Positions 13,816 through 30,418 of a stretch of 33,198 nucleotides of DNA are shown piece after piece. Location: the IMG/VR virus record IMGVR_UViG_3300028423_000423, positions 1 to 33,198 of that record, one strand, 5' to 3'. The notes beneath the pieces are model-generated. The model saw nothing but the letters and a program-made list of their open reading frames with translations. It was not told the origin of the DNA and did no database searches. The DNA is from a virus. Numbering within the stretch: the stretch's first letter is position 1; the number at the start of each line of letters is the position of its first letter. Both the position numbers and the translations under genes were made by a program.

Positions 13816-13859
13816 TTGGTAGTTTTTGCCAATTACTTTTACTCTGCTGTCTGTATTAT
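13816..13859 (+). promoter_or_regulatory. Dyad-class phage promoter (plus-strand island genes)
   Basis: The perfect consensus dyad TTGGTAGTTTTTGCCAA lies at 13816-13832. The -10 box TATTAT is at 13854-13859, exactly 22 nt after TTGCCA. No good -35 hexamer is present at the usual spacing. It drives the zinc-ribbon-like gene whose start is 25 nt downstream of the -10 box. Confidence 0.7.
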
Positions 13860-13883
13860 AAGGTTATCTAATTGGAGGTTATT

Positions 13884-14093
13884 ATGGCTAAGCTAAAGTG
13901 TAAGTGTGGAAATGTCCTAAGTAATACCTTGTCTTCAAATAAGACTGATTATTCCGCTTATGATGAACATGACGAAACATTAATAAGCGTATGGATTTGT
14001 GAGGAATGTAAAAGCGTGCATATTGAAAGCGACTACCACGGAATTAATGGGTGGTACACCGCAGACACAAAGGTGGATTATGAAATACATTAA
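13884..14093 (+). CDS. Small zinc-ribbon-like protein
   Basis: A 69-aa protein on the strand opposite the structural operon, between scaffold and portal. The start at 13884 follows a strong GGAGG with 5 nt spacing. It has a CKCG pair near the N-terminus (residues 5-7) and a CEEC pair around residue 43, the four-Cys arrangement of a zinc ribbon. Between them is an acidic stretch (DYSAYDEHDE). It is driven by the dyad-class promoter just upstream and overlaps the next gene by 14 nt. Small zinc proteins of this kind often bind nucleic acid or host RNA polymerase, but nothing here proves that. Confidence 0.7.
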   Translation: MAKLKCKCGNVLSNTLSSNKTDYSAYDEHDETLISVWICEECKSVHIESDYHGINGWYTADTKVDYEIH

Positions 14094-14253
14094 TCAAGGC
14101 GACACAATTACAATTGAAGGGTTAGTACGGAATTCTAACGGTAATCTTTGTTTTGATAAGCAAAAATCAGAGAAAAGAAAATTAAAAGATGAATACCTAG
14201 GTCGTTGCAAGCAAGTTAGGCTAACGGTTTTGGATGAATGCAAAGGGCGTTAA
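14080..14253 (+). CDS. Small basic protein, unknown, second island gene
   Basis: A 57-aa Lys/Arg-rich protein starting at ATG 14080 inside the end of the previous gene, with AGGTGG 3 nt upstream, so the pair is probably translationally coupled. The sequence shows a short beta part (GDTITIEGLVRNSNGNLCFD) and then a basic stretch (KSEKRKLKDEYLGRCKQ). No family recognised. A short hairpin (GGGC-GTTAA-GCCC) overlaps the stop region and may weakly end the transcript. Confidence 0.6.
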   Translation: MKYINQGDTITIEGLVRNSNGNLCFDKQKSEKRKLKDEYLGRCKQVRLTVLDECKGR

Positions 14254-14305
14254 GCCCCTCAATTATTCGCTTGCTACATCATTGCTACTTTTTAAGCTAA
14301 TCTTT

Positions 14306-14410
14306 CTATTTCTCAACCCGTGTTACATGCGCTATCAGATAGCTGCCATCATTCACCATGTAAGCATTACATTCAAACTCTGTAACTCTCTGAGCGGATT
14401 TTAATCCCAT
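14306..14410 (-). CDS. Candidate microprotein in the portal-scaffold gap (34 aa)
   Basis: A 34-aa reading frame with protein-like composition (EFECNAYMVNDGSYLIAHVT). Just upstream and overlapping it is a 15-codon frame (14401-14448) starting after a very strong GGAGGTGG site. The two could be one gene read with a frameshift, or a leader peptide coupled to this gene. A third tiny frame precedes them. No terminator separates them from the late operon, so they would be co-transcribed with portal and scaffold. Low confidence because of length. Confidence 0.35.
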   Translation of the reverse strand: MGLKSAQRVTEFECNAYMVNDGSYLIAHVTRVEK

Positions 14411-14448
14411 TCGAAGATGATGAATTCGAACGCGTTGTTATTACTCAT
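14401..14448 (-). CDS. Possible 15-aa leader peptide with strong ribosome site
   Basis: ATG at 14448 follows GGAGGTGG by 2-3 nt, one of the strongest ribosome sites in the window, yet the frame stops after 15 codons (MSNNNAFEFIIFEWD). It overlaps the next 34-codon frame by 10 nt. It may be a leader that couples translation, or the start of a frameshifted gene. Confidence 0.3.
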   Translation of the reverse strand: MSNNNAFEFIIFEWD

Positions 14449-14539
14449 AACCACCTCCGCGTAGCTCGCCTATCGTTGTTATAGTTCCGGCATTAGTTGA
14501 GTATTCACCATCCTTCATTGGTATGATATAAGTAGCCAT
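14441..14539 (-). CDS. Candidate microprotein in the portal-scaffold gap (32 aa)
   Basis: A 32-aa frame (MATYIIPMKDGEYSTNAG at its start) beginning 64 nt downstream of the portal stop, with AAGGA 8 nt before the ATG. Its end overlaps the start of the 15-codon frame. Its role is unknown. It belongs to a run of three tiny minus-strand frames facing the two plus-strand island genes. Confidence 0.4.
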   Translation of the reverse strand: MATYIIPMKDGEYSTNAGTITTIGELRGGGYE

Positions 14540-14602
14540 TTTGCTTTTCCTTTGTTGCAATGTCTTACTACATTAATTCCTAAGCCATTATACTACTCTA
14601 GA

Positions 14603-16678
14603 TTAGACTTGTCCTTGATTTGCCTTAGCTATCTTTAATTGCTGGTCAAGGTATTCGCTTTGCGTCTTGGCCTCGACGTTCTGAATATTAACCCCAGCCT
14701 TAGCCGCTTCTATCTCAAGCTTTTGGCGTTCGGTTAGCGCCTTAAATTCATCGATAGCAACTTTCCTAGCATCATTCTGCTCATTCATTAGCGCCGCTTG
14801 ACCTTCCATCATTCTGGCTTGGCCTTCCATCTCCATAGGATTCTGTTGATTTTGAGCCGCTGCTTGCATTTGCTGCATTACTCGCTGAGCATGTGCTCGC
14901 TCTTCATCAGTTTTAAGGTCAGGGTCAATGCCTTGCTGAATGAGAATGCCAATCTCGTTAAACCTAGCCATTTTACGGGCTGTCTCTTGCCCTTCGCCAG
15001 TAGTCGATTGAATAGCCGACATTAGAACTATCTGGCCCATTGGCGTTGATGTATCCGCATACTGTAGCAGCTCCCTTGCAGCCGCCGCTTCTGCCTCTTT
15101 GGTGGATTTGTGGGATTCACCAACCTTAACAGTAACGTCATACTTGCCACGGGCTGAATTCTTATATGGGCCATATTCGTTATCAGGTGTTAGCGTGTAT
15201 TCCATTGTTTTGATTTGCGAATAAGCACCATCCGGGCCTTGAATGCGTATAGTCCTTGAGCTTGAGAAGTAAAGCTTTTGAGCTGCTGGTAGCCAAACTT
15301 TACAAGCCGCCTTAATTGCCTGTACTGCGTTTTGAAATAACGGCTGGAACGCATCGTCTTGGCGCTCATTCATTTGAGCAATAGCATCCGCCGCGGTATT
15401 ACTTGGGATGGTTGATTGCCCAGTGCCGCCCTGCTCTCTCATATTTGAGTCAAGATATTGAAGGGTACTGGCTAAACCACTACCAACTTGTGGCGGCGTA
15501 TACTTGCCAATTGGGCCTAAATGCCTAATCTGCCCATTCTCTTTGATCGGGTCAGTAAGTAGAAATGGAGGGTTATCTAAGCCTTTTCGTGCATGCTGTT
15601 TAGCATGACGATTAACTTGTTCTGGTGCGTACTCTGGAATTTCAACTTGCGGTTGAGCGGCTATTTCCATTAGTGCACCAAAACCCATATTCTCAAATCG
15701 TTGCATATCCCGCTGGCGCGCTGTTTCGCCGCAATAGTACTCTTCACCATTGATCACGGTATGGTAGCCGTACTGAGGGATAATAGGGATTGATTTAAAT
15801 GGCGTGCGCTGGGGCTTGATTAGGTATCGGCCGCCGCTCATTAGGGCATACTCAACAAACCGTACTTTGCGCTTTCTGATCTCGTAATCGGCTACTGCCC
15901 TTAGCTCGGATAGCTCATCACGGGCAACCTTGTTGCCGAATGAATCCTTGATACCGTCACCAGTGGTAACGACAAATCCGCCGCCAAAATCATAATCGGT
16001 CAGTGTTTTTTCAAATACTTCGTAGTAATGAGCTACATATATATCTTTACTGCTATCGCTAGAGCACCAATCAAAGAATCCCATAGACTGAGGAAAGCTA
16101 GCCAGGTTAACGCCGTACTCGTCTTCGGTGGCCTTGCGATTAACCTTTATTAGCTGCCACGCTTGCTTTGCATCTTGCTTGTCTTTGCGAATAGCTCCGG
16201 CACCAAACACCACCGAGCTAGGTGCTGAATATACTGGCTCTATACATAAATATTGATTTTCGGGGGTTGGGTCTTCTTCGTCTTCATACTTAGCCACAAC
16301 CTTGAATGCGCCAAAGCCACCAAAAAAAGCCTCATCCGCTGCGTTATTTAGCGCCTCAATACCATCTGACATATTGAAGTCATTACGCCAGCGACCTTGA
16401 AGCAAGTCCGCATCCTCATCTGTTGCCTGATTACTAGCACTAGCAATACGCGCATTCATCTCCATGCGCTGGTATTGGCCAAGCAATCGGTTTACCTGTT
16501 TGAACACCTTGTTATTCTCAGGCTTTGGCTTATTGGCGAACTGCTCACCGTCGCTACCTTTCCATTGCGCCCCGGCAACCTTAGCAAACTCTATATCTTC
16601 AAGGCATGACTTGTTTAATTCATACCGAGAAGCGATTGCATCGTTAAAGTCTACTAAAATATCCTGTATATCTTTCAT
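14603..16678 (-). CDS. Portal protein, P22 gp1-like
   Basis: A 691-aa portal subunit (P22 gp1 is 725 aa). It forms the dodecameric ring through which DNA enters and leaves the head. The N-terminal helical part includes KVFKQVNRLLGQYQRMEMNA and FNMSDGIEALNNAADEAFFG, typical of P22-type portals. The middle has YYCGETARQRDMQRFENMGF. The C-terminal 130 residues are Gln/Ala/Met-rich helix (MQQMQAAAQNQQNPMEMEGQ), corresponding to the barrel region of P22. It starts 5 nt after the large terminase stop. Confidence 0.85.
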   Translation of the reverse strand: MKDIQDILVDFNDAIASRYELNKSCLEDIEFAKVAGAQWKGSDGEQFANKPKPENNKVFKQVNRLLGQYQRMEMNARIASASNQATDEDADLLQGRWRNDFNMSDGIEALNNAADEAFFGGFGAFKVVAKYEDEEDPTPENQYLCIEPVYSAPSSVVFGAGAIRKDKQDAKQAWQLIKVNRKATEDEYGVNLASFPQSMGFFDWCSSDSSKDIYVAHYYEVFEKTLTDYDFGGGFVVTTGDGIKDSFGNKVARDELSELRAVADYEIRKRKVRFVEYALMSGGRYLIKPQRTPFKSIPIIPQYGYHTVINGEEYYCGETARQRDMQRFENMGFGALMEIAAQPQVEIPEYAPEQVNRHAKQHARKGLDNPPFLLTDPIKENGQIRHLGPIGKYTPPQVGSGLASTLQYLDSNMREQGGTGQSTIPSNTAADAIAQMNERQDDAFQPLFQNAVQAIKAACKVWLPAAQKLYFSSSRTIRIQGPDGAYSQIKTMEYTLTPDNEYGPYKNSARGKYDVTVKVGESHKSTKEAEAAAARELLQYADTSTPMGQIVLMSAIQSTTGEGQETARKMARFNEIGILIQQGIDPDLKTDEERAHAQRVMQQMQAAAQNQQNPMEMEGQARMMEGQAALMNEQNDARKVAIDEFKALTERQKLEIEAAKAGVNIQNVEAKTQSEYLDQQLKIAKANQGQV

Positions 16679-16682
16679 CTGC

Positions 16683-18209
16683 TCACCAGTGGTTTACCGA
16701 GCTAATATGTAAATGACTCATATCTTGTTCCACCTTAACTACAGGCTCAGCGAATGTTAAAGCCGCCGCATCCCCGTAGTCAGGACTAAAGCCATATTTT
16801 TCTTTTATCTTATCCTTGCTCCATAATACCCTACGGTCATTTGAGTCACGATCATAGGGGCTAGCGCACAAGTCTGCTTGTATTTCATCACTATCCGGAA
16901 TATCAGGAGGCATAGACTCATCAGTAATCCACTCTGCCATCTCTCCCCATATTTCGTTTCGCTTGTTCCTGTACTTCTCAGGATTTAACGCAGTAGAACC
17001 GAAGTTTACAGCCTTTATTCTACCCTCATACCCTAATTCGTTCAATCTATCAACAATATCGGCGCCTGAGCCAAAGTCTACAAACATCATATCAGGCTTT
17101 TTGCCTGCTACCGGGCATTCTTCGTCAAGTATTCGCTTGCAGATTGCAACATTCTTACCAAGCTGATTACATTGCTCACCAATGTAAGATTCTTGACCAT
17201 ACATTTTGCGGCCTTGGCGCTTAATGATCGCAAACCTATCGCCGCCTCTGGACGGGTCAACACCTGCGATTAGTGGGCCATTACCATTGGCCTTCTGGCT
17301 TCTGGCTTTCTCGCAGTCGCTAGGACTTATAAGGCCGTCACCACCAGATACCTGGAATGCTTCCGCTGCGTTGTTCGGGTATTCTTGCTTAAACGCCTTT
17401 TCTCCATCCGCGCCATCTGTCGTAAGCTCTGCTATTTTCGAGCGGCGCCATACTAACTGCGGGTTTGTTAGATTGTATGTTTCTTTTAACTGCTGCTCTT
17501 CTTCGGTTGCCTTAAACCCGTCCGGAACTTCTTTGGTGTATTCTGTTTGCCAGTACCACGGTACAAATATCGCCTCAAAATCTGAAAGCCCCTTTTCTGC
17601 TAGCTTCCATTGTTGGTGAAAGAAGTTATTCACACCATTGGCCGTGCTTTCAAATACCACCTCAGTACCATCAGCATCAGGGATTGCCTGCATTACGCCT
17701 TTAGTGTGCTCAGAGGCGTTCTTCCAGAATGCGACCTCTGAACCATGGAAATATTGTATGGTTTGGCCGCGCCCTACTGATTTATTCCCGGCTGTCCCGA
17801 TCTTGTAGCCAGAATCAAGAACATCGAAGTGAAGCTCTTTGGCGTTAGCTGCTCCCGCTGTTGGTTTTACAAATAAAGGTAGGTTTGTGTAATAGCGCTC
17901 TGTCATCTCAAACAAAGCATTGGTGGATTCGGCTTCATGCGTAAGTATGAACGCCCTTACGCCTTTGTGGTGGGTTGTTTTCCATAAAAATCGACCCTCA
18001 ACATAAGTACTCATACCCTGTTGCCGGCCTTTTAGGATAATAGCACGAACTTTACCAGTTTCTTCTATCTGCTTTTGAAGCCTTTCATGAATGTATTGTT
18101 GAGCGCTGTTTAATACAAGATTAGTTAAACCCTCATGCTTAGTTCGAATACATAAGCAATTACGAGCATAAAACTCAAAGTCGTCTTTTAAGCGCTGCCT
18201 TTTATTCAT
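16683..18209 (-). CDS. Terminase large subunit (packaging ATPase-nuclease), P22 gp2-like
   Basis: At 508 aa (P22 gp2 is 499) this is the motor that pumps and cuts DNA. Walker A is GRQQGMST at residues 61-68. Walker B is in IQYFHGSEVAFW (151-162) with the acidic pair replaced by S-E. The coupling segment is ESTANG (187-192). The nuclease domain starts at AGVDPSRGGDR (315-325), continues with FVDFGSGADI (around 376-385) and ends near PDYGDAAALTFA. The P22-like set of terminase, portal, scaffold and coat suggests headful packaging. It starts at TAATG overlapping the small subunit gene. Confidence 0.9.
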   Translation of the reverse strand: MNKRQRLKDDFEFYARNCLCIRTKHEGLTNLVLNSAQQYIHERLQKQIEETGKVRAIILKGRQQGMSTYVEGRFLWKTTHHKGVRAFILTHEAESTNALFEMTERYYTNLPLFVKPTAGAANAKELHFDVLDSGYKIGTAGNKSVGRGQTIQYFHGSEVAFWKNASEHTKGVMQAIPDADGTEVVFESTANGVNNFFHQQWKLAEKGLSDFEAIFVPWYWQTEYTKEVPDGFKATEEEQQLKETYNLTNPQLVWRRSKIAELTTDGADGEKAFKQEYPNNAAEAFQVSGGDGLISPSDCEKARSQKANGNGPLIAGVDPSRGGDRFAIIKRQGRKMYGQESYIGEQCNQLGKNVAICKRILDEECPVAGKKPDMMFVDFGSGADIVDRLNELGYEGRIKAVNFGSTALNPEKYRNKRNEIWGEMAEWITDESMPPDIPDSDEIQADLCASPYDRDSNDRRVLWSKDKIKEKYGFSPDYGDAAALTFAEPVVKVEQDMSHLHISSVNHW

Positions 18210-18640
18210 TACTCTAAGCTATCCAGCCATTCTTCATGAGTCATTTGCACTTGCACCTGCTCTTGCTTATCGCGCCATCTAGAAGGATTTCTGTTTTTAA
18301 GCCAGAATATACAAGCGGTCGGGTCAGGTGGTAATTCCTTGGTTGTCTGTACTGCCGATGGTGCTTCGTCATCATCTCCACCACCTGCTACCCTTTGCTC
18401 TGTTACCGTCATACCCATAGCGCGCTTTAGAAGGGCATTCTCAACACTATTTGTATCAAATTCGTCCTTTCCTTTTTTTAAGGACTCTAGAAAGCTGTCA
18501 TTCTTCAGCTTCCAATTGTTTATGGTAGCCTCACAAACACCAAACAACTGAGCCAAGTCTGCATCTGTAGCACCTAGCTTGCAGTGTAAGTACGCTTGTC
18601 TATCGTATTCTTCTTTGTAGTCTGTTTTTCTATGTGACAT
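18209..18640 (-). CDS. Terminase small subunit
   Basis: A 143-aa DNA-recognition subunit. Residues 22-45 are a helix-turn-helix (LGATDADLAQLFGVCEATIN), followed by a helical oligomerisation region (FLESLKKGKDEFDTNSVENA). The C-terminus has the conserved PPDPTACIFWLKNRNPSRWR segment of this family. It is the first gene of the late operon. AAGGGG lies about 8 nt before the ATG, and a 7-9 bp hairpin sits in the leader just upstream. Confidence 0.85.
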   Translation of the reverse strand: MSHRKTDYKEEYDRQAYLHCKLGATDADLAQLFGVCEATINNWKLKNDSFLESLKKGKDEFDTNSVENALLKRAMGMTVTEQRVAGGGDDDEAPSAVQTTKELPPDPTACIFWLKNRNPSRWRDKQEQVQVQMTHEEWLDSLE

Positions 18641-18747
18641 AGTATTATCCCCTTGGGTGCCTCAGTAAAACGCAACGGGGATTATGTGACCTGAGGCGCA
18701 TCACAATAGGGTAATAATATCATAACACTAAAAATAGAGGAAATAAG
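18641..18747 (-). promoter_or_regulatory. Leader and candidate promoter of the late operon
   Basis: On the minus strand a TATGAT -10 box (18719-18724) sits 17 nt from a poor -35 (CTTATT, 18742-18747). The dyad of the early/middle promoters is absent, so late transcription must use another rule. Between the promoter and the small terminase start is an inverted repeat GCCTCAG/CTGAGGC (18659-18665 and 18691-18697). It is the same stem sequence as the hairpin ahead of the gene ending at 28453. Confidence 0.45.
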
Positions 18748-18779
18748 GCGGGGTTAAAAAGATCGGCTCACATTTCAGG

Positions 18780-19067: not shown

Positions 19068-19220
19068 TTAAACTTCCTCAGACCAATATTCTTTTAGATT
19101 TCGCTTTTCTACAATGTTTCTTGCTTGCTCGCGTATCTCATCAATTGTGCCGCTAATAAGCCATGTATCCTGTGTGCCATCTTGATATACGCCATGTATT
19201 CTAAATGTTCTTTTTTCCAT
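19068..19220 (-). CDS. Small unknown protein (50 aa) behind a double-site promoter
   Basis: A 50-aa frame starting at ATG 19220, with AGGGG about 6 nt upstream, 30 nt downstream of the -10 box of a dyad-class promoter. The sequence begins MEKRTFRIHGVYQDGTQDTW and ends in a charged helix (IDEIREQARNIVEKRNLKEY). It reads like a small beta-alpha protein. No family recognised. It is the last gene of the early minus-strand block, ahead of the structured junction. Confidence 0.6.
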   Translation of the reverse strand: MEKRTFRIHGVYQDGTQDTWLISGTIDEIREQARNIVEKRNLKEYWSEEV

Positions 19221-19250
19221 TATTATCCCCTTTCGTTAGTTGGTATATGT

Positions 19251-19317
19251 ATATTAGCAAAGGGGATTAAGGTTGGCATTGGCAAGATAGATCAAAATGA
19301 CTGGCCAAAACTACCAA
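19251..19317 (-). promoter_or_regulatory. Dyad-class promoter with two tandem sites
   Basis: The proximal site is TTGGCAAGATAGATCAA (19279-19295, plus-strand reading) and the distal site CTGGCCAAAACTACCAA (19301-19317). Their starts are 22 bp apart. The minus-strand -10 TAATAT is at 19251-19256, 23 nt from TTGCCA. It drives the 50-aa gene. The distal site lies against the stop codon of the upstream gene. Confidence 0.65.
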
Positions 19318-19318
19318 A

Positions 19319-19489
19319 TTACTTAGGTTTTCGCCGTTTTCGCTCCCAGTACCACTTATCAACGGCAATAACAAGATGACCTACTGCAACAATAGCCATG
19401 ACAGCTTTAAGGGTTCCGTCAAACGTCATCATTCCCGCGAGAAGCGTTGCGCCCCACGTTAGTTCGTTTACGGTGCTTTCTGCACTCAT
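19319..19489 (-). CDS. Small holin-like membrane protein (56 aa)
   Basis: A 56-aa frame starting at ATG 19489, overlapping the stop of the upstream membrane gene by ATGA. Residues 10-45 hold one or two hydrophobic segments (TLLAGMMTFDGTLKAVMAIV and AVGHLVIAV). The C-terminus is strongly basic (WERKRRKPK), a pattern of small holins and other phage inner-membrane proteins. Its neighbour is a larger membrane protein. A dedicated lysis cassette lies elsewhere, so this could be a second holin or antiholin, or something else. Confidence 0.55.
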   Translation of the reverse strand: MSAESTVNELTWGATLLAGMMTFDGTLKAVMAIVAVGHLVIAVDKWYWERKRRKPK

Positions 19490-20044: not shown

Positions 20045-20251
20045 TTATTCCTTCGATGATATTTTAACATCATCAAGCTTTGAAGCATAGCCAGTGATTA
20101 GATGCCTAGCTTCTTCGTCGCGACCCTGCTGGTAAAACCGCTTGGCACGCTTTAATACCGCCTCGCGATCTCTCAGCATCTTAGCCTGCTTATCGACTAG
20201 CTTGCCGCGTACTTCTGCGGTTTGCCAGCCGTCACCAGCATCATAACTCAC
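20045..20251 (-). CDS. Small helical protein (68 aa)
   Basis: It starts with GTG at 20251, whose bases overlap the stop of the upstream gene (GTGA), with GGGAG 7 nt before. No in-frame ATG is available near it. The body is a charged helix (VDKQAKMLRDREAVLKRAKR). A tetratricopeptide-like turn around DEEARHLITGYASKLDD follows. No family recognised. Translationally coupled to the 104-aa gene. Confidence 0.6.
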   Translation of the reverse strand: MSYDAGDGWQTAEVRGKLVDKQAKMLRDREAVLKRAKRFYQQGRDEEARHLITGYASKLDDVKISSKE

Positions 20252-20562
20252 TCAAGAACTCCCTCAAGCAAGTCAGTCGCCACTTCTTCTAAATGCTCAT
20301 TCAACTGCTTGCGATTGTCTGCGCCGCTATATTGCTCAACCAATAACTGGCTGATCAACTCAGCGTCATATTTGCCAGCATTGATTGCATGGTCAATTAC
20401 GTCACGCATAGACCACTCATGGCCACCTGCTTGCACTTCGCCACCACCAAGGATGATTGCAACCTCGCTCTGGATTTGCGCGTCTAGTCGCTCCTGCGCT
20501 TCGCCTGCTTCTTGCAATTTTTGGTCGTATGCAATGCTTTCTGCGTATGGATTAAAGTTCAT
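20248..20562 (-). CDS. Acidic helical protein (104 aa), unknown
   Basis: First gene of a short operon behind a dyad-class promoter (site 20618-20634). The leader carries a GGAGA ribosome site. The protein is acidic and helical, with a Gly-rich break in the middle (IILGGGEVQAGGHEW). Its C-terminus (LNEHLEEVATDLLEGVLE) looks like a coiled coil. No family recognised. Confidence 0.6.
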   Translation of the reverse strand: MNFNPYAESIAYDQKLQEAGEAQERLDAQIQSEVAIILGGGEVQAGGHEWSMRDVIDHAINAGKYDAELISQLLVEQYSGADNRKQLNEHLEEVATDLLEGVLE

Positions 20563-20590: not shown

Positions 20591-20634
20591 ATGTTACTGA
20601 TTTACAAAGAGAATACAGTGGCAAAAAATACCAT
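20591..20634 (-). promoter_or_regulatory. Dyad-class phage promoter
   Basis: The site GTGGCAAAAAATACCAT (20618-20634, plus-strand reading) matches the dyad. The minus-strand -10 TAACAT at 20591-20596 is exactly 22 nt from TTGCCA. It drives the gene starting at 20562. Confidence 0.7.
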
Positions 20635-20643: not shown

Positions 20644-20838
20644 TTATTCTGGCATATCTTGCCAATCAACTACGCCATTTTCTGGTACTGCTATTAGCTT
20701 GCAATCTTGACTTCGTGGTAGGTCTTTAACGCAATCGTAATAGCCTGCTGTTTCTTCGACTACAATTTTATGATTTAAATTTCCAGCTGCTAAGCCAACT
20801 AATAAGCCACCGAAGAATCCAATTAGCACATTAAACAC
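20644..20838 (-). CDS. Small membrane-anchored protein (64 aa)
   Basis: GTG at 20838 is preferred because AGGGG lies 8 nt upstream; the frame extends to another GTG at 20847 with no room for a ribosome site. Residues 1-20 are a hydrophobic anchor (MFNVLIGFFGGLLVGLAAGN). The rest is a soluble tail with two Cys (YYDCVKDLPRSQDCKLIAVP). It could be a membrane or lipid-facing small protein. It overlaps nothing downstream and ends 10 nt before the next promoter site. Confidence 0.5.
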   Translation of the reverse strand: MFNVLIGFFGGLLVGLAAGNLNHKIVVEETAGYYDCVKDLPRSQDCKLIAVPENGVVDWQDMPE

Positions 20839-20839: not shown

Positions 20840-20956
20840 CTACTCACCCCTCGCTATCTCAGCCGCTCGCTTATGGTCCTGGTAGTCCATCTCACCAACT
20901 ACCCCAAAAATCAGCATAGTGATGATCATTACCGCTGCAAAAATCGCCTTATCCAT
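20840..20956 (-). CDS. Tiny single-pass membrane protein (38 aa)
   Basis: The ATG at 20956 has GAGGTGG 3 nt upstream and overlaps the end of the coiled-coil gene by 8 nt. A longer frame upstream is mostly the shadow of that gene. Residues 4-22 are one hydrophobic segment (AIFAAVMIITMLIFGVVGE), then a charged tail (MDYQDHKRAAEIARGE). Unknown role. Confidence 0.5.
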   Translation of the reverse strand: MDKAIFAAVMIITMLIFGVVGEMDYQDHKRAAEIARGE

Positions 20957-21176
20957 GCGCCACCTCGCCCGACTTGCAAGCACGCTCATCCAAATCAATG
21001 CGCAATTCTTGAATCTCATCTTGCGCTTGAGCCAAGTCACTGCTCATAGTTAGCATTTCTTGATTCAGATTGCACAACTTTTGAAGCGCCTCTTTTGCTT
21101 TTTTGTTGCCGTTATTTGCGCTTAGCTCCAATGCTTCGCGCACTTGCTGAATTTCGTTTATTGTTGTTTGTTCCAT
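20949..21176 (-). CDS. Coiled-coil protein (75 aa)
   Basis: First gene after the dyad-class promoter at 21204-21247. AAGGGG lies 7 nt before the ATG. The whole protein is predicted helix with heptad-like spacing (INEIQQVREALELSANNGNK, then MSSDLAQAQDEIQELRIDLD). No family recognised. It is followed by two tiny membrane proteins in overlapping frames. Confidence 0.6.
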   Translation of the reverse strand: MEQTTINEIQQVREALELSANNGNKKAKEALQKLCNLNQEMLTMSSDLAQAQDEIQELRIDLDERACKSGEVAHG

Positions 21177-21203: not shown

Positions 21204-21247
21204 ATCATAACACCGCTATTCATTTAGTCAGTGGCAAAAACTACCAA
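21204..21247 (-). promoter_or_regulatory. Dyad-class phage promoter
   Basis: The site GTGGCAAAAACTACCAA (21231-21247, plus-strand reading) differs from the consensus at one base. The minus-strand -10 TATGAT (21204-21209) is exactly 22 nt from TTGCCA. The leader has CTAACAAGGGGA, shared with other operons here. Confidence 0.75.
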
Positions 21248-21265
21248 AATCATTGGCCTATTAGA

Positions 21266-21625
21266 TCAATCTAGGATGTTTATCTTTAGATCAACCCTTC
21301 CGCCTTTTACTTTTTCGCCTTTCGATATGATTAGCCTATCCACCTGCTCATCATCAACCCAAAAGCCTGCGTGTGTGAGGGCGTCAAACGGGCCTTTACA
21401 CCAGTTGTCAATGTCGTATTTTCTTAATGTCGGGGGGTTAATTACAACTGACACGGATAGCCTTTGACTGACTAGCTCATTGGTAAGTCCTAGCAGTCTT
21501 ATTGCATTTGCCGTACTCTCTCTGTACTCCCTGCCTCGTTTGCTTATAATTTGACGCCCTTGGAATGATCGCCAGTATCCATTAACACTAGGTGGCCAAG
21601 GCAATGTAAACTCATAATCAGCCAT
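21266..21625 (-). CDS. rusA: RusA-type Holliday junction resolvase
   Basis: A 119-aa protein, the usual RusA length. It cuts four-way DNA junctions made by recombination before packaging. The family motifs are PWPPSVNGYWRS (residues 9-20), DIDNWCKGPFDAL (71-83) and the DD pair at 91-92. The catalytic acids of E. coli RusA (D70, D72, D91) and the essential Lys (K76) have counterparts at D71, D73, D91 and K77. It overlaps the upstream HNH-like gene by 8 nt and is the last gene of the recombination operon. Confidence 0.9.
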   Translation of the reverse strand: MADYEFTLPWPPSVNGYWRSFQGRQIISKRGREYRESTANAIRLLGLTNELVSQRLSVSVVINPPTLRKYDIDNWCKGPFDALTHAGFWVDDEQVDRLIISKGEKVKGGRVDLKINILD

Positions 21626-21977
21626 TTTTCCACGTTCTCCCCCATGATTCGATTGCCGCTTGTACTTCTTCCGGCGGCATTTCGCCAGTTTCTTTTTGAT
21701 AACCTGTAATCAGCGAGTACCACGCCCCAGCGTAATCCCCCAGCTTTTCACCTTCGACTGTCTTTTTGTAGTCGCACTCTTCGCAATTTGGCAATACGAA
21801 CCAATGACCAATATGAACCTTATTGTGGCCCTGCTTAGCGCCTATGACGTGATCAACAATAGACCCTGATTGACTGCCGCACCACACGCACGGCTGATAT
21901 TTAACCCATCCCTGAAAGCGCTTTTCCGCTGCGTTCGCACTGCGTCCGTATCTATTTTTACTAGCTTTGCTTTGCAC
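21618..21977 (-). CDS. HNH-like zinc protein (DUF968/Ref-type nuclease candidate)
   Basis: A 119-aa protein starting with GTG at 21977 behind GGGAGG. It has a CVWC pair (residues 30-33), VDHVIG (41-46), H51 and CEEC (65-68). That is the two Cys pairs and central D-H of zinc-bound beta-beta-alpha nucleases such as the DUF968/RecA-dependent nuclease group. Its place beside RusA matches the recombination genes of lambdoid phages. It probably nicks or processes DNA. The family assignment is tentative. Confidence 0.55.
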   Translation of the reverse strand: MQSKASKNRYGRSANAAEKRFQGWVKYQPCVWCGSQSGSIVDHVIGAKQGHNKVHIGHWFVLPNCEECDYKKTVEGEKLGDYAGAWYSLITGYQKETGEMPPEEVQAAIESWGRTWKNG

Positions 21978-24716: not shown

Positions 24717-24743
24717 ATCTATCTCCCGTTGTTAGTTATTCCA

Positions 24744-24809
24744 ATGCTACACGACTTATTTCATATAGCATTGGCAAGAAGTATCAAAAGTATTGGCTAA
24801 AACTACCAA
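24744..24809 (-). promoter_or_regulatory. Dyad-class promoter with two tandem sites, recombination operon
   Basis: The proximal site TTGGCAAGAAGTATCAA (24771-24787) and distal site TTGGCTAAAACTACCAA (24793-24809) start exactly 22 bp apart. The minus-strand -10 TAGCAT (24744-24749) is 22 nt from TTGCCA. The distal site is inside the last codons of the upstream gene. Confidence 0.7.
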
Positions 24810-25200: not shown

Positions 25201-25517
25201 TTTGCTTTCTCCATTGCGATTGCTACTAATACCTCGCAGATTGCGCGGAGTGGGCTTTCATGTGTTCGGTAAACGCCGTTCGCATTATTTTCCCTTACCT
25301 CGTAAAAATTGGGGTAAAGCGGATTATTCATTGGTTTTATAATCAAATTGTTCTTTATCGCCAGCGGCATAGTTAAACCCCAATCTCTTGAATACTTAAG
25401 CCTTGCAGCAAGAACTCTATCCCTAACTGAATAGTCTCGTTCAAAATCTTTTCCAAAGTCTAATTTTGCCAACTCAAAATCCATCTCTCTTTCTGTCATT
25501 TCGTGTGGTTGTTTCAT
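25197..25517 (-). CDS. NinX-like small protein (DUF2591 candidate)
   Basis: A 106-aa protein. The ending is HESPLRAICEVLVAIAMEKA, and the central block (WGLTMPLAIKNNLIIKPMNN) resembles phage NinX/DUF2591 proteins, which share an N-P-L-R-A-x-x-x C-terminal pattern. Their role is not known. It is coupled by ATGA to genes on both sides, following the P-like helicase loader. Confidence 0.5.
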   Translation of the reverse strand: MKQPHEMTEREMDFELAKLDFGKDFERDYSVRDRVLAARLKYSRDWGLTMPLAIKNNLIIKPMNNPLYPNFYEVRENNANGVYRTHESPLRAICEVLVAIAMEKAK

Positions 25518-26212
25518 TTTAGCGCCTCCCGCATTGCTCTTAGTTCGTTGATAGCCTTATCTTTATTCATAGGCGTGTGGGTTTTCTCTATGCTTTTGAC
25601 TGGCTCAGGCGCTTGCTTTAATTGCCCTCCAGCTCTTAATAACTCAAGCGTCCTTTGATATTCAGACTCCCAGTATTCTTTGTGCTTGTCCTTGCTCATG
25701 TGTCGCCAGGCATGAATATCAGCAAGGCTGACCAATGTATGGTAAACCTCTGGAGATAACCCCTGCGGCTTTCTTTGCTCTCTGGGCAAGCATTGGTACT
25801 CTGTAACCTCCTTGTACGCCTTGTGGGGTGTTAAAATCCCTTCTGGTAGGCTTCCTTCACGGCACCATCCAATAAACTGCCCAATAGTTGGCAAAAACGG
25901 GTTGCCTGATTCCTTTACGCAATTTAGAGCGTAATCAATAACGTGACGTTGATTGATACCCGCAGCCATTAGGCTTGATAGCCATTCTCGTTTCTGGGTT
26001 TTCAAAAGCTTTTCTTTTTCATCGTGACTCATTCCGGCAAGCGATTGCTGCCATGCTGGGCAAATAGCCTGAAGCTTATGAAAGATATAATTGATAATCT
26101 TTCGATCTTGCTCGCTATCTTCTGTCTGCTGTTTTTCAGCTAGCGCCTCAGCCTTACCAATCTGTGTCGTTAAGGTTGCTAAGTGTTGCTTTGCTTCCAA
26201 GTGATTGTCCAT
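25514..26212 (-). CDS. Replication protein P-like helicase loader
   Basis: A 232-aa protein with the signature of lambda P-type loaders, which bring host DnaB helicase to the O-origin complex. NPFLPTIGQFIGWCREG lies at residues 104-120, after a helical N-terminus (IINYIFHKLQAICPAWQQSL, then KTQKREWLSSLMAAGI). The remaining C-terminus is helical and charged. It overlaps the O-like gene by 59 nt and starts behind AAGGA. The O-P pair predicts theta-type replication relying on the host helicase. Confidence 0.75.
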   Translation of the reverse strand: MDNHLEAKQHLATLTTQIGKAEALAEKQQTEDSEQDRKIINYIFHKLQAICPAWQQSLAGMSHDEKEKLLKTQKREWLSSLMAAGINQRHVIDYALNCVKESGNPFLPTIGQFIGWCREGSLPEGILTPHKAYKEVTEYQCLPREQRKPQGLSPEVYHTLVSLADIHAWRHMSKDKHKEYWESEYQRTLELLRAGGQLKQAPEPVKSIEKTHTPMNKDKAINELRAMREALK

Positions 26213-26852
26213 TGCTGTATTCCTTATTTCGTTTAAACCAATTTCTAACTGCTGCCTTCCAGTCCTTCATGGGTGTTTTGCCTCCGACCTTCCAGCCATT
26301 CGACTCGAAGTGGTCAAAGAAGCGTTCACCGTCATCAAGGCAAGTAGTAGAGCCTATTTCGTTAAAATAGCTTTGAACCTCTTGCAAGGTTGGCCTTTTC
26401 ATTTGAGCGCTTTTTTTAGCGTTAGCTTTACTCTTATCTATTCTATTCTTCTTCTTATCTTCTTCTATTCTGGGCTGACATTTTCTGACAATGTCATGAC
26501 GTGTCCTGACATCCTCTATAAATTGGCGCATAGCTGGGCTGTTAGTCATTGATTTGTCTAGCCTTTTTGCTAATTTTAGGCAGGTTATAACGCCGTTCGA
26601 GTTCTCAAATAGACCGATCTCTACGAATCGAGTCATCATCTCTTGTACCTTTTGAACGCTTGACCCTGTGTTTCTGGCGATTATCCGCGCGTCATGCTCA
26701 AGCTCGAAAGTGATATTATCGGAGTCAATCTTTTGCGTAATTAGCTCTATGCAATACCAGTACAAGCCATAACCTTCCAGCCCGTAATCCAGTAATATCT
26801 CTTGTAAGCGTGCATCCATGTTTGCATCACTGTCATGTTTAAACCACTTGAT
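26154..26852 (-). CDS. O-like replication initiator, probable non-ATG start
   Basis: The ATG-based frame begins at 26819 (221 aa). The reading frame continues upstream as K-W-F-K-H-D-S-D-A-N-M-D, the usual opening of this initiator family, until a TGA at 26856-26858. An AUC at 26852 follows GAGGAG at 7 nt and is the only well-placed start; CTT at 26855 is the other option. N-terminal part: LLDYGLEGYGLYWYCIELIT (winged-helix type). C-terminal part: TLQEVQSYFNEIGS, DGERFFDHFESNGWKVGGKT, PMKDWKAAVRNWFKR. The middle is a Lys-rich linker encoded by an unusual purine tract and repeats (candidate origin). It starts replication with the P-like protein. Confidence 0.75.
   Translation of the reverse strand: MKWFKHDSDANMDARLQEILLDYGLEGYGLYWYCIELITQKIDSDNITFELEHDARIIARNTGSSVQKVQEMMTRFVEIGLFENSNGVITCLKLAKRLDKSMTNSPAMRQFIEDVRTRHDIVRKCQPRIEEDKKKNRIDKSKANAKKSAQMKRPTLQEVQSYFNEIGSTTCLDDGERFFDHFESNGWKVGGKTPMKDWKAAVRNWFKRNKEYSNGQSLGSKATLSNLNDTDW
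26420..26511. other. Candidate replication origin inside the O-like gene
   Basis: TGAC-start repeats begin at 26476, 26486, 26497 and 26507, a 10-11 bp spacing that places them on one face of the helix. An inverted TGTCA sits at 26492. Next to them (26420-26470) is a strand-biased pyrimidine tract (purine on the coding strand). Lambda also keeps its iterons and AT/purine-rich region within the O gene. No binding has been shown; the spacing is visible, the role is inferred. Confidence 0.4.
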
Positions 26853-26886
26853 AAGTCAACTCCTCTAGGGTCTTTGAACCCAGCTT

Positions 26887-27213
26887 TTATTTAGATTTAT
26901 TTCTTAAAACTGAATTTAGCTTTTCCGTTGCCAGCTCTTTATTGCCGCAGATAAAATCAAGTATCGCCTCACTAGCTTTTATATCGGTTTTTAATTCGTC
27001 ATATACAAAAACACCATCATGGGTATCACGCTTTCTAGTTTTGCACCTTGCACACAATATCTGCATATTTTCTATATGATCTTCCCCGCCCATTGCTAAA
27101 GGCTTTATATGGTCAACTTCGAGCGATTCTTCAGATTGGCAGTTGTTGCATTTAAAGTCATACAGCCACATAAGAAACCATCTATCTGAGTTTGATATGC
27201 GCTTTCTTTTCAT
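26887..27213 (-). CDS. HNH endonuclease
   Basis: A 108-aa protein with CNNC (residues 22-25), the EVDHIKPLAMGGEDHIENMQ catalytic core (32-51) and CARC (54-57). These are the two zinc-knuckle pairs and D-H of a classic HNH nuclease. The C-terminal helix is charged. It starts at the ATG directly after the stop of the RHH gene. It is a stand-alone nuclease, likely homing-type or early DNA processing; nothing shows a target. Confidence 0.85.
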   Translation of the reverse strand: MKRKRISNSDRWFLMWLYDFKCNNCQSEESLEVDHIKPLAMGGEDHIENMQILCARCKTRKRDTHDGVFVYDELKTDIKASEAILDFICGNKELATEKLNSVLRNKSK

Positions 27214-27351
27214 CTACTTAACCTCTTTCTTTAAGGTCTGCTCAATGAAGTTGTTTAGGCTGCGACCGTCCTCTTTTGCTGCCTGCTTTAGCTTTTCTAT
27301 TAGCGCTTCATTTAAGCGAATTGTGGTTGTTTTCTTTGATTGCTTTGTCAT
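27214..27351 (-). CDS. Arc-like ribbon-helix-helix regulator (45 aa)
   Basis: A 45-aa frame with the RHH fold: an N-terminal strand KTTTIRLNE (residues 7-15), helix A ALIEKLKQAAKEDG and helix B SLNNFIEQTLKKEV, close to P22 Arc/Mnt. A dimer would bind short inverted repeats through the strand. AAGGGG precedes the ATG. It is the first gene of the replication operon, and a 12-bp palindrome (27408-27419) lies in its promoter region. A candidate regulator of this operon or of the dyad-class promoters. Confidence 0.8.
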   Translation of the reverse strand: MTKQSKKTTTIRLNEALIEKLKQAAKEDGRSLNNFIEQTLKKEVK

Positions 27352-27507
27352 GGTTATCCCCTTTTGGTTGATTTATATATGCTATCACTTTGTAATTAGT
27401 TAGCAATACATTTAAATGTTTTTTAGTTTTAATATTTCGATAGATTGAATGGTTTAAGCATCTAATTTGTAGATATGATAGGCAGGAAAAATCAAAGCCT
27501 AATGTGA
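27352..27507. promoter_or_regulatory. Promoter region of the RHH-HNH-replication operon
   Basis: An AT-rich, gene-free stretch. On the minus strand TTGCTA-N16-TAGCAT (27385-27404 region) could be a sigma70 promoter, and ATATATAA boxes follow. A perfect 12-bp palindrome, ACATTTAAATGT, lies at 27408-27419, just upstream of the -35 and well placed for operator binding. The shared leader (CAACCAAAAGGGGA) precedes the RHH start. The phage dyad is absent here, so this operon may be the immediate-early one. Confidence 0.45.
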
Positions 27508-27758
27508 TATAATGCCCTTGGCTTCACAGCGCGCCTTAAGTAGCTGATAGCCCCGCCAAGCCTCTGCAACTTGTAAGTATTGCTTACAGGTTCAAGCTCA
27601 AATTGATTCGTTTCAGTGGCTGACTTGTTGAGATAGGCTCTGAATCTGCGGGGATTTTGCTGCCACCATCGGGCGGCGCTCTAGTATATACGGCGGTGAC
27701 GATGGAAAACCCGCTAGCCCGTTCACGCAGGTTTTAACCCTGTATTGCGGGGATTTTC
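27505..27758 (+). ncRNA. Extended -10 promoter and structured untranslated leader before tRNA-Trp
   Basis: TGATATAAT (27505-27513) is an extended -10 element facing right. The next 245 bases have no gene but several pairings: CTTGGC/GCCAAG (27517-27522 and 27555-27560), a 10-bp stem AACTTGTAAG/CTTACAGGTT (27568-27592), and CCATCG/CGATGG (27666-27671 and 27700-27705). A 12-mer TGCGGGGATTTT occurs twice (about 27649 and 27746), the second copy just before the tRNA. It may be a processed leader or a decayed tandem RNA gene. No known RNA class recognised. Confidence 0.4.
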
Positions 27759-27833
27759 CAGTCTGTAGCTCAATTGGTAGAGTAGTGGTCTCCAAAACCA
27801 CGGGTCGCGGTTCGAATCCGTGCAGGCTGGCCA
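27759..27833 (+). tRNA. tRNA-Trp (CCA anticodon)
   Basis: A full cloverleaf with encoded CCA. The acceptor CAGTCTG pairs with CAGGCTG (one G-U). The D-arm is GCTC/GAGT, and the anticodon stem GTGGT/ACCAC has loop CTCCAAA (anticodon CCA). The T-arm is CGCGG/CCGTG with TTCGAAT, and the discriminator base is G. The D-arm and anticodon loop closely follow bacterial tRNA-Trp. It probably supplements UGG decoding for Trp-rich phage proteins, or replaces a tRNA cut by host defence. A small membrane gene follows 17 nt later, probably in the same transcript. Confidence 0.9.
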
Positions 27834-27850
27834 TAAAAAGAGGATATACA

Positions 27851-28081
27851 ATGGAACAAATAGCGATAGCGGTAACTGGAGTTGTAGCAATCTGGCTAAC
27901 CCAGCAATCAAAAAGTGAGCTTAAAAAATACGCCAGTATACTGGGATTAATAGGTCAGCCGTTCTGGTTTTATGCGACTATTTCCGCTGAGCAGTGGGGT
28001 ATTTTTGTTCTTAGTTGGTTTTACACTTATAGCTGGGGTCTTGGTTTTTATAATAATTGGATTAAAAAAGGCCGCATATAG
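27851..28081 (+). CDS. Small membrane protein (76 aa) downstream of tRNA-Trp
   Basis: ATG at 27851 with GAGG 8 nt upstream; a longer frame starting before it runs through the tRNA and is rejected. There are two or three hydrophobic segments: residues 3-18 (QIAIAVTGVVAIWLTQ), 30-44 (ILGLIGQPFWFYATI) and 48-70 (WGIFVLSWFYTYSWGLGF). Rich in Trp and Tyr, and ends in a basic tail. The layout resembles small phage membrane proteins with the G-x-x-G-Q-P-F-W segment. Role unknown. Confidence 0.7.
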   Translation: MEQIAIAVTGVVAIWLTQQSKSELKKYASILGLIGQPFWFYATISAEQWGIFVLSWFYTYSWGLGFYNNWIKKGRI

Positions 28082-28086
28082 CGGCC
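28062..28086 (-). terminator. Intrinsic terminator for the leftward 28.1-29.2 kb genes
   Basis: A GGCCGC-N5-GCGGCC perfect 6-bp stem (28070-28086). On the minus strand TTTTTT follows directly. The stop codon of the convergent membrane gene lies inside the hairpin. To the right only a short T-poor tract follows, so it mainly ends minus-strand transcripts. Confidence 0.8.
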
Positions 28087-28091
28087 TGTGG

Positions 28092-28442
28092 TTATTTATC
28101 AGTTAGTTTCCTTCTGACTTCCGCGGGGTTCGCTCCAGAAAAAGCTATGGATTCGAGCCTTATGTTATCCGGCACCTCAACCGCTTCACCAGTATGTATG
28201 TTGTACATGGTTTTGGTTAGCGGGATAGGGCGGTAAACCTCCCCGTTTAAACAGATTAGGCTAATTATTTGACTACAACCAACTTCGCTAGGAAGATGCT
28301 CATCTTTGAACGCCTTTAACTCCAACCCAAACCCCTTCTTACATTCAGGGTACTCCCGCATGTAGTCAGCTAGGTACTCCAATAGATCGGGCAGGTTGTC
28401 TTTGGTGAATATCTTGCCTTGGTGTTTTTGTAGGTTGTTCAT
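28092..28442 (-). CDS. Unknown early protein (116 aa)
   Basis: ATG 28442 follows GGAGGTAAC; the longer frame to 28475 has no such site. The sequence starts MNNLQKHQGKIFTKDNLPDL. It has an acidic helical N-terminus (LEYLADYMREYPECKKGFG) and a beta-rich middle (SQIISLICLNGEVYRPIPLT), and ends in a basic helix. No family recognised. It ends the leftward 29.2-28.1 kb operon right before the terminator. Confidence 0.6.
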   Translation of the reverse strand: MNNLQKHQGKIFTKDNLPDLLEYLADYMREYPECKKGFGLELKAFKDEHLPSEVGCSQIISLICLNGEVYRPIPLTKTMYNIHTGEAVEVPDNIRLESIAFSGANPAEVRRKLTDK

Positions 28443-28452
28443 GTTACCTCCT

Positions 28453-28794
28453 TTAGATAAGATACTGATCTTCAATATCTTTTAAACCTAGGTCAAAATA
28501 CATCGTCGTCATTATATTTATTGGCGCTATATCGCCAACGCGTCTATCTTCCGTGTAGTAGTCAATCCCATAAATCTCAGGCTCATCTAAATCATAACAG
28601 GCCAAAGTTATTGTGTGATTTTGCCTAAGCACATTTTCTGGGTAATACAAATATAAGTTAACCACAACGAAAGCTCGACCATCCTCATCCCCTACGGACT
28701 CATCCTCAAATGAGTGATTAATGATAGCGGGGATGCTGCTCATTGCTTCATTAAATTCTCTTTTCATTTTGTTTAGTAGCTCTTTTGTGCTCAT
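28453..28794 (-). CDS. Unknown acidic early protein (113 aa)
   Basis: An acidic protein with a helical N-terminus (LLNKMKREFNEAMSSIPAII) and a beta-rich body (GRAFVVVNLYLYYPENVLRQ, HTITLACYDLDEPEIYGIDY). Starts behind GAGGAGATAAC. Its leader carries the strong GCCTCAG-type hairpin also seen before the small terminase gene. Function unknown. Confidence 0.6.
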   Translation of the reverse strand: MSTKELLNKMKREFNEAMSSIPAIINHSFEDESVGDEDGRAFVVVNLYLYYPENVLRQNHTITLACYDLDEPEIYGIDYYTEDRRVGDIAPINIMTTMYFDLGLKDIEDQYLI

Positions 28795-28807
28795 GTTATC
28801 TCCTCTA

Positions 28808-28837
28808 CGCCTCAGCCTTTCTCTAAAGCCTGAGGCG
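28808..28837 (-). promoter_or_regulatory. Hairpin in the leader of the 113-aa gene
   Basis: CGCCTCAG/CTGAGGCG (8 bp), one mismatch, then CTTT/AAAG around a 4-nt loop. It lies 14 nt before the ATG and close to the GAGGAG ribosome site. No T-run follows on either strand, so it is not a terminator. Translation control or RNA processing is more likely. Confidence 0.55.
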
Positions 28838-28905
28838 CGTTCTGTTTGTTTGTGATAGTTGACCCGTCTAAGCGATTAGCGTCGCATAGCGGGCCTTGGG
28901 TGTTG

Positions 28906-29235
28906 TTAGCTTTCGACCAGCTCCTCTAGTAGTGCGTCTGCGTATTCAGTGGCTGCTATTGCAGCAAGGGTTGAGTCATGCGACCACGCGCCCTCAGAAT
29001 CGCAAGCTGATGCAAGGGCTTGCATGGCCATAGCTGCAATACGTTTGCGTTCACCTTTGCGAATAATACCATCAAGCTCAGGGTCGCCTGTTTCTGGTAC
29101 GCCCATTTGCAAGCAAAATTTCTCGCGCTTGCTGAGTCCTGATAACAATCCTTCACGAAAACCAACATCACCCATGTGATGCGGTGCACCCTGTTCATTT
29201 ACGATTGGCTGTATAGGTAAATCTGCGTTTTTCAT
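28906..29235 (-). CDS. Small early protein (109 aa) of a common phage type
   Basis: ATG 29235 follows AGGAG by 8-9 nt; the longer frame begins inside that ribosome site. The pattern (GLSKREKFCLQMGVPETG, AAMAMQALASACDSEG, ends TEYADALLEELVES) resembles small phage proteins of unknown role that share a LT/S-K-R-E-x-F opening and an ADAL-like C-terminal helix. It is the first leftward gene behind the divergent promoter, with a perfect TATAAT -10. Confidence 0.65.
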   Translation of the reverse strand: MKNADLPIQPIVNEQGAPHHMGDVGFREGLLSGLSKREKFCLQMGVPETGDPELDGIIRKGERKRIAAMAMQALASACDSEGAWSHDSTLAAIAATEYADALLEELVES

Positions 29236-29265
29236 TTTTGTAGCTCCTCTCATTAGTTAGCCTTG

Positions 29266-29367
29266 ATTATAGCCATAGAAGCCTATTTGTAATTGGCAAA
29301 ATGTTCCAAGTTTTGGTTTTATTTTGGTAGTTTTGGTCAATGTGGTTTTGTGTGTGGTGTGTATTAT
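29266..29367. promoter_or_regulatory. Divergent pair of dyad-class promoters
   Basis: Leftward: site TTGGCAAAATGTTCCAA (29293-29309) with -10 TATAAT (29266-29271), 22 nt apart. Rightward: site TTGGTAGTTTTGGTCAA (29324-29340) with -10 TATTAT (29362-29367), 22 nt apart. The two dyads start 31 bp apart on opposite strands. They drive the 109-aa gene and the RMF-like gene. Confidence 0.75.
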
Positions 29368-29392
29368 TAGGGGTAACTGATAGCGAGGTAAT

Positions 29393-29563
29393 ATGAATAA
29401 ATACGAGCGAGACATATATCAAAGCGGCCACAGTGCTGCAAAAAACGGAAAGCCAAAGTCGGCATGTCAGCTAAAAAAATGGACTGAATTGCGCCAACGC
29501 CATTGGTGGTTGGCAGGCTGGCATGATTGGCATATTGAGAATAATACCGGGATTAGGAGTTAA
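29393..29563 (+). CDS. Ribosome modulation factor (RMF)-like protein
   Basis: A 56-aa protein starting at ATG 29393 with a GAGGT site. It follows the E. coli RMF pattern: a basic N-terminus, G-x-x-A-A-x-x-G (SGHSAAKNGK), a Cys in the middle, then R-x-x-x-WLAGW (HWWLAGWHDWHIEN). RMF binds the small ribosomal subunit near the 3' end of 16S rRNA and pairs ribosomes into inactive 100S dimers. A phage copy from a strong dyad-class promoter could dampen host translation or protect ribosomes. The family call is good; the role in infection is inferred. Confidence 0.75.
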   Translation: MNKYERDIYQSGHSAAKNGKPKSACQLKKWTELRQRHWWLAGWHDWHIENNTGIRS

Positions 29564-29574
29564 ATACCGCAATC

Positions 29575-29618
29575 TCGGTAGTTTTTGAAAGCAGTAATTC
29601 CTGCTTTGGCTTTATAGA
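29575..29618 (+). promoter_or_regulatory. Dyad-class promoter ahead of the attenuator and Rha/KilAC gene
   Basis: TCGGTAGTTTTTGAAAG (29575-29591) is a weaker dyad match. A -10 TATAGA (29613-29618) lies exactly 22 nt after TTGAAA, the TTGCCA position. The spacing supports it although the right half-site is poor. The predicted start is around 29624. Confidence 0.5.
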
Positions 29619-29646
29619 CTCTGTTCTATCAATCAAGCATAAAACG

Positions 29647-29715
29647 GCTAGTGCATTATTTGAGAGGGTGAGCTTGAAGCCCAATTCTGACCTCAGATAG
29701 TGCACTAGCTTTTTT
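29647..29715 (+). terminator. Strong 18-bp-stem terminator just before the Rha/KilAC gene
   Basis: GCTAGTGCATTATTTGAG (29647-29664) pairs with CTCAGATAGTGCACTAGC (29692-29709), 18 bp with two G-U pairs, followed by six T. The T-run ends 15 nt before the ATG at 29731 and only a GGAG site lies between. With the promoter at 29575-29618 it bounds a transcript of about 90 nt. It acts either as an attenuator for the Rha gene or as the end of a small RNA. A second hairpin (AAAGCAG-N6-CTGCTTT, 29588-29607) overlaps the promoter. Confidence 0.75.
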
Positions 29716-29730
29716 ATTGGAGCTATAAAA

Positions 29731-30372
29731 ATGAAACTATCCACAAACACCCACCAGACCATGTCTAGCCGTGAAATAGCGGAACTAACTAGCAAACACC
29801 ATAAAAACGTTAAGCGCGATATTGAGAAAATGCTAAATGAGTTGGATATAGATAGGCTCAGTATTGAGCGCATCTATTTAGACTCAATGAATCGCAAGCA
29901 ATCTGAGTACAATCTAAATCGCGACCTAACAGACTGCCTTTTAACCGGCTATAGCGCCAAAGCTAGAATGGCTGTCATCAAAAGATGGCGAGAACTGGAA
30001 TCAAAAGAGCAGCCACCAGCAATCCCGCAAACCTACGCGGAAGCCCTTCAATTAGCCGCTGACCAAGCAAAACAGCTAGAAGAAGCCAAGCCCAAGCTCG
30101 AGTATCATGACAAAGTACTTGCAACTGAGAACGGCATCACTACTACGGAAATAGCCAGCGAGCTAGGCATGACAGCCAATAAACTCAATAAGTTATTAGA
30201 AGCCATGAAGGTTCAGCGCAAGATAGGCCGCCGATGGGTGCTTACCGCTGCTAATATCGGTAAAGGCTACGATGTCGAGACTACGCATGTAGATGATGGA
30301 GGTGTATCGCGTCACGCTATGAAATGGTCAGAGAAGGGCCGTAAATTTATTCATGAGCTAATCTGCCAATAA
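29731..30372 (+). CDS. Rha / KilAC-domain antirepressor-like protein
   Basis: A 213-aa protein. Residues 9-90 match the Rha N-terminal domain (TMSSREIAELTSKHHKNVKR followed by DIEKML, with the RxKxxYNLNRDLTDCL strand), and residues 95-213 the KilAC (ANT) domain (TTTEIASELGMTANKLNKLL, ending WSEKGRKFIHELI). Such fusions act as regulators in lambdoid phages: Rha in superinfection control, ANT in relieving repression. No repressor gene is seen here, so the target is open. The gene lies directly behind a strong terminator and has no promoter of its own between that and its ATG. Confidence 0.8.
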   Translation: MKLSTNTHQTMSSREIAELTSKHHKNVKRDIEKMLNELDIDRLSIERIYLDSMNRKQSEYNLNRDLTDCLLTGYSAKARMAVIKRWRELESKEQPPAIPQTYAEALQLAADQAKQLEEAKPKLEYHDKVLATENGITTTEIASELGMTANKLNKLLEAMKVQRKIGRRWVLTAANIGKGYDVETTHVDDGGVSRHAMKWSEKGRKFIHELICQ

Positions 30373-30418
30373 TAATGATACTTCTTGCCAATGATTTATA
30401 GGTATTGGCTGGTATTGT
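30353..30418 (+). promoter_or_regulatory. Dyad-class promoter for the 30.4-31.1 kb genes
   Basis: The proximal site ATGATACTTCTTGCCAA (30375-30391) has -10 TATTGT (30413-30418), exactly 22 nt after TTGCCA. A weak second site ending TGCCAA (30353-30369) is 22 bp upstream, inside the Rha gene end. It drives the coiled-coil gene at 30444. Confidence 0.6.

Follow-up and report, generated by a model that had tools for sequence, protein, structure and literature searches.

An oriented element near -42 marks a predicted activator-dependent promoter class in a group of uncultivated phages

In phage lambda, CI activation of the PRM promoter involves a dyad of 17 bp near -42; another operator lies next to it, about two turns upstream. 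The middle promoters of phage T4 form a phage-wide class in which a MotA box, centred near -30 and not a dyad, replaces the -35 and is combined with a -10. At the Pm promoter of phage Mu, which together with its activator Mor is the closest described case to the promoters reported here, the -35 is replaced by a Mor dimer bound to a 16-bp element that has its centre at -43.5 (PMC4390567). The same paper names a class II CRP-type promoter, CC(-41.5) of E. coli (PMC4390567).

The stretch of DNA analysed here (the window) spans the 33,198 bases of an IMG/VR virus record. It encodes a P22-type coat protein, the best named relatives of which (about 54% identical) belong to Vibrio lentus phages. The terminase of the window shares about 77% identity with the terminase of Pseudoalteromonas phage vB_PspP-H6/1. 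Further genes are those for ERF, YqaJ, RusA, a lambda P-like replication protein and a Rha/KilAC regulator, together with a Mom-like gene. Promoters with a shared element precede early and middle genes, among them the ERF operon, the Mom operon and small middle genes, and also an opposite-strand gene at 13884; the divergent pair 29293/29324 belongs to the same set. In agreement with the earlier note, no element lies upstream of the replication operon (RHH, HNH, O-like, P), in which the RHH gene comes first. A tRNA-Trp (CCA) gene at 27759-27833 (+) lies beside the element-free early promoter region. The 56 aa product of 29393-29563 (+), served by an element promoter, resembles ribosome modulation factor by eye (GHxAAxxGKPxSAC...WLAGWHDW), with no match in Pfam; related small proteins are present in the contigs G011, G015 and G023. 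The Mom-like DNA modification gene (31212-31796, +; PF25680, E 4.5e-24) is the last in its element-controlled operon. The features are summarized in Table 1.

Table 1. Positions of the predicted promoter elements, their -10 boxes and two related genes in the window.
Feature	Position	Strand	Remark
Activator-type element TTGGTAGTTTTTGCCAA, perfect consensus	13816..13832	+	promoter of opposite-strand gene(s) from 13884
-10 box TATTAT, 21 nt past element	13854..13859	+	
Element TTGATCTATCTTGCCAA, gap 22	19279..19295	-	before small gene 19068-19220, which precedes terS/terL
-10 box TAATAT	19251..19256	-	
Upstream second copy TTGGTAGTTTTGGCCAG, 22 bp from proximal copy	19301..19317	-	
Element ATGGTATTTTTTGCCAC	20618..20634	-	promoter of 20248-20562
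-10 box TAACAT	20591..20596	-	
Upstream second copy TTGGCAAGATATGCCAG, 31 bp away	20649..20665	-	
Element TTGGTAGTTTTTGCCAC	21231..21247	-	promoter of 20949-21176
-10 box TATGAT	21204..21209	-	
Weak upstream copy TTGATCTAATAGGCCAA, 22 bp away	21253..21269	-	
Element TTGATACTTCTTGCCAA	24771..24787	-	promoter of ERF / YqaJ / SSB operon; conserved in G023
-10 box TAGCAT	24744..24749	-	
Upstream second copy TTGGTAGTTTTAGCCAA, 22 bp away	24793..24809	-	within 3' end of AP2-like gene
Element TTGGAACATTTTGCCAA	29293..29309	-	promoter of 29235-28092, leftward operon; conserved in G023
-10 box TATAAT	29266..29271	-	
Element TTGGTAGTTTTGGTCAA	29324..29340	+	divergent partner of 29293; promoter of 29393-29563; perfect consensus in G023
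-10 box TATTAT	29362..29367	+	
Element ATGATACTTCTTGCCAA	30375..30391	+	promoter of 30444-31796 incl. Mom-like gene; conserved in G023
-10 box TATTGT	30413..30418	+	
AP2-like protein, 138 aa	24784..25200	-	phage-encoded candidate reader of the element
RHH (Arc-type) protein	27214..27351	-	head of element-free replication operon

The earlier note had listed nine sites sharing a dyad and a fixed gap, and eight of these were confirmed at their given positions. Each is a TTGGTA-N5-TGCCAA near-palindrome with 0-2 mismatches and has a -10-like hexamer 3' of the element. The hexamer begins 22 nt past TTGCCA, which equals 21 nt past the terminal A of the element (CCAA), at 13816(+), 20618(-), 21231(-), 24771(-), 29293(-), 29324(+) and 30375(+). 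At 19279(-) the gap is 22 nt, and this is the one site to which an extra nucleotide had been ascribed. The ninth site, 29575, was dropped, with 4 mismatches in 12 dyad positions and surroundings that do not align to the near relative G023; a further dyad match at 21788 is intragenic, has no -10 and was not counted. Second upstream copies, overlooked in the earlier note, are found at 19301, 20649, 21253 and 24793, the elements at 29293 and 29324 serve each other, and the start-to-start distance between paired copies is 22 or 31 bp. Seven dyads (≤2 mismatches) in the window carry TAnnnT at gap 21; in 300 simulated first-order Markov sequences such composites averaged 0.07 and never exceeded 2. 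Averaged over all gaps, the count among the 19 window dyads with ≤2 mismatches is 0.6.

A motif search extending from the window to relatives and beyond, as the earlier note had suggested, found the element and gap in about 25 uncultivated phage contigs with differing terminases and early genes. All viral contigs were scanned with the element, gap and TAnnnT; this composite, which selects through the -10, returned 27 stretches in more than 20 contigs, many of them multi-site, where a rough estimate of the chance expectation is below about one. Most terminase relatives are without the element; the close relative G001 has seven copies at ≤1 mismatch, and G015, G033 and G034 are carriers with other terminases. 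G023 retains four of the promoters, though the linker of the divergent pair has changed. No element was found in named phages among the collections searched, nor was its sequence found in phage or bacterial papers with an open licence. Within these collections and papers, the earlier statement that no described phage regulon has this sequence holds. A k-mer search for an alternative dyad in the element-negative terminase relatives yielded only coding or tandem repeats. One terminase relative, G010 (contig IMGVR_UViG_3300044448_006145), contains a long tandem array at 12570-13520, which repeats about every 75 bp with a unit that includes GGCGCTAACTT.

Alignment of 85 non-redundant promoters gave the consensus TTGGTAGTTTTTGCCAAT, with high information over 18 bp, approximately zero information across the next 20 bp, the expected place of a -35, and then a clear -10. 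Some of the aligned promoters had been selected through their -10, and 51 dyads not picked in this way are the fairer test: their TATAAT-like hexamers peak at gaps of 21 nt (14 sites) and 22 nt (20 sites), the typical background being about 4. The -10 boxes are weak in several carrier contigs. With a presumed start 7 nt past the -10, the centre of the element lies at -42 or -43.

The central spacer GTTTT is conserved and asymmetric, and in the reverse orientation the element reads TTGGCAAAAACTACCAA. Among 50 consensus copies, a -10-like hexamer is present at 21-22 nt on the TGCCAA side in 44 and on the opposite side in 5 (background about 7 and 9, respectively); some copies entered through the composite search, and the effect holds also in the set of unselected dyads. 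This bias indicates that the element would work in one direction, a point missed by the earlier note. The site had been described as a plain 17-bp dyad; it is indeed a near-palindrome, but an oriented sequence of 17-18 bp with a conserved GTTTT spacer. Second copies, direct or inverted, often lie 22 or 30-32 bp upstream, corresponding to two or three helical turns, and thus stay on the same face of the DNA. Recurrence of the element through chance or coding repeats has no supporting point of weight. It is opposed by the viral-contig scan, the gap peaks among unselected dyads, the 85-promoter alignment, the Markov simulation and the orientation count, and was ruled out as an explanation, its probability being negligible.

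Its position, its orientation and the lack of a -35 together suggest that the element serves class II activation of a host sigma-70-type polymerase. With the presumed start, the centre falls within the interval of -41.5 to -43.5 that characterizes class II architecture, and the clear -10 of the alignment is accompanied by no good -35. Both the window and many independent phage contigs support a genome-wide promoter class with an activator position near -42 and no -35, as originally proposed. Judged from sequence, these promoters quite probably constitute an activator-dependent class common to one phage group and read by a predicted factor. A sequence-specific protein would bind the oriented TTGGTAGTTTTTGCCAAT and substitute for the missing -35 contact, and host RNA polymerase, through the sigma-70-type -10 box, would then start the early and middle operons and the opposite-strand inserted genes. 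Cooperative binding is probably aided by the second copy, placed two or three helical turns further upstream.

A -10 without a -35, an inverted repeat centred at about -43 and a host sigma-70 polymerase are the features in common with Mu Pm and Mor; replacement of the -35 contact by a phage activator is a feature of Pm and a presumed one here (PMC4390567). Mu has a single middle promoter with a 16-bp site and a G/C-rich spacer, whereas the present genomes have up to about eight promoters each, a conserved, oriented and T-rich spacer and, frequently, a second copy upstream. The Mor family (PF08765) was rejected as binder: the 8 element-bearing contigs searched, the window among them, gave no match at E ≤ 1. 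The likeness to class II CRP-type promoters lies in a dimer-type site near -42 from which the polymerase may be contacted, but the sequence and spacing of the site are unrelated and no host regulon was found in the genomes searched. Compared with the single promoter of lambda, the promoters described here form a dispersed regulon, and no CI-like gene was recognised. They differ from T4 middle promoters in having a dyad near -42, and no MotA/AsiA-like gene was recognised.

The elements might instead be operators of a phage repressor, similar to stoperators. The 17-bp dyads spaced about two turns apart do resemble lambdoid operators, and the phage carries the antirepressor-like Rha/KilAC protein. 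However, a fixed centre at -42, strict orientation and no -35 at any site are unexpected for operators, which usually overlap the -35/-10, and no CI-like protein was recognised, so that this reading is regarded as unlikely and binding by an activator is favoured.

As to the protein that would bind as activator, no phage protein is both universal among the carriers and conserved enough for a strictly conserved 17-bp site. The earlier note had named the phage RHH protein, the zinc-ribbon protein and a host factor. A point in favour of the Arc-type RHH protein is its expression from the replication operon, an element-free unit, but it is present in only three of nine element-bearing contigs (window, G015 and G033). 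It is missing at E ≤ 1 from G001, G013, G017, G018, G022 and G034, and G001 has, by our reading, only a different RHH-like gene. Not being universal among carriers, the RHH protein was rejected, and there is very little probability that it binds the element. The small RHH-like gene of G001 (1707-1907; region L083:1560-1710) has a promoter with GCCAATGCGCA[CT]ATGCAA on both sides, and these two copies may be operators of that gene. The zinc-ribbon protein occurs in two carriers only and was likewise discarded. Rha/KilAC is absent from G018, where the early region is covered, has a variable recognition helix and is widespread in element-free phages. The MSIKD coiled-coil protein is a product of element promoters and has no recognised DNA-binding domain. 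Neither was retained as binder.

A host transcription factor is the one earlier candidate to survive, at a tentative level. The phages would then borrow a conserved class II activator of the host, and the early genes would fire at once with no phage factor. The element surpasses every phage regulator in conservation and stays constant where the head-of-operon regulators change from carrier to carrier: the window, G015 and G033 have RHH, G012 and G017 an XRE-type HTH, and G001 another RHH-like protein. Host genomes gave no excess of sites to match: the strict composite occurs only 9 times in 84,980 species genomes, over unrelated organisms and consistent with chance. Among 398 sampled Pseudomonadota genomes 12 have a match at ≤1 mismatch, fewer than the reversed control; the sample may miss the host, and natural host sites may be more degenerate.

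About as likely as a host factor, and the best phage-encoded candidate, is a family of AP2-like proteins with the motif Y[FY]G[MQ]xP-x3-LSAKM, one member of which is encoded in the window. It might be the activator, its AP2 units reading two unequal half-sites and its conserved N-terminal peptide touching RNA polymerase; the chance of this is put at clearly less than even. Each genome has one or two genes of the family, in most cases immediately ahead of erf/recT-type genes, and the window member carries a variant of the N-terminus, YHGMKPEVEMSAG. A search of all viral contigs with the DNA signature of this N-terminus returned 11 contigs, comprising seven known carriers and four new ones, all four element-bearing. 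Structure models suggest a disordered, conserved N-terminus followed by one or two beta-beta-beta-alpha units, and their best PDB matches by Foldseek are AP2 domains, although weak (E 0.04). One member matches Pfam AP2 with E 7e-4, below the curated cut-off. In G017, G018, G022 and G025 the gene sits behind tandem near-perfect elements, as for autoactivation. Against this assignment, the AP2 units are about 20-40% identical between most carriers and the putative DNA-facing residues vary; the window protein has a single unit, and the forms in G033 and G034 are divergent. Other clade-specific genes, too, are confined to carriers, so co-inheritance may explain the link with the element, and the gene adjoins erf and could serve recombination. 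The member tested had no match in named phages. Alignment-based searches with the family were unproductive because of too few conserved columns, single members retrieving only close relatives. The full proposal is that a phage-wide class II regulon is controlled via an oriented imperfect dyad by a new activator family, in which AP2-like units bind the DNA and the conserved, disordered peptide at the N-terminus contacts RNA polymerase; it is regarded as speculative, with a probability well below even.

The promoter class outlines how transcription would be programmed in a little-known group of marine-type phages, the element having no carrier among the named phages searched, and would allow start sites and temporal classes to be predicted from sequence alone. 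One short DNA sequence provides a clear bait for the activator. If the AP2-like protein reads the site, it would represent a new class of phage activator; if a host protein reads it, these phages would tie their early genes to an undescribed host regulator.
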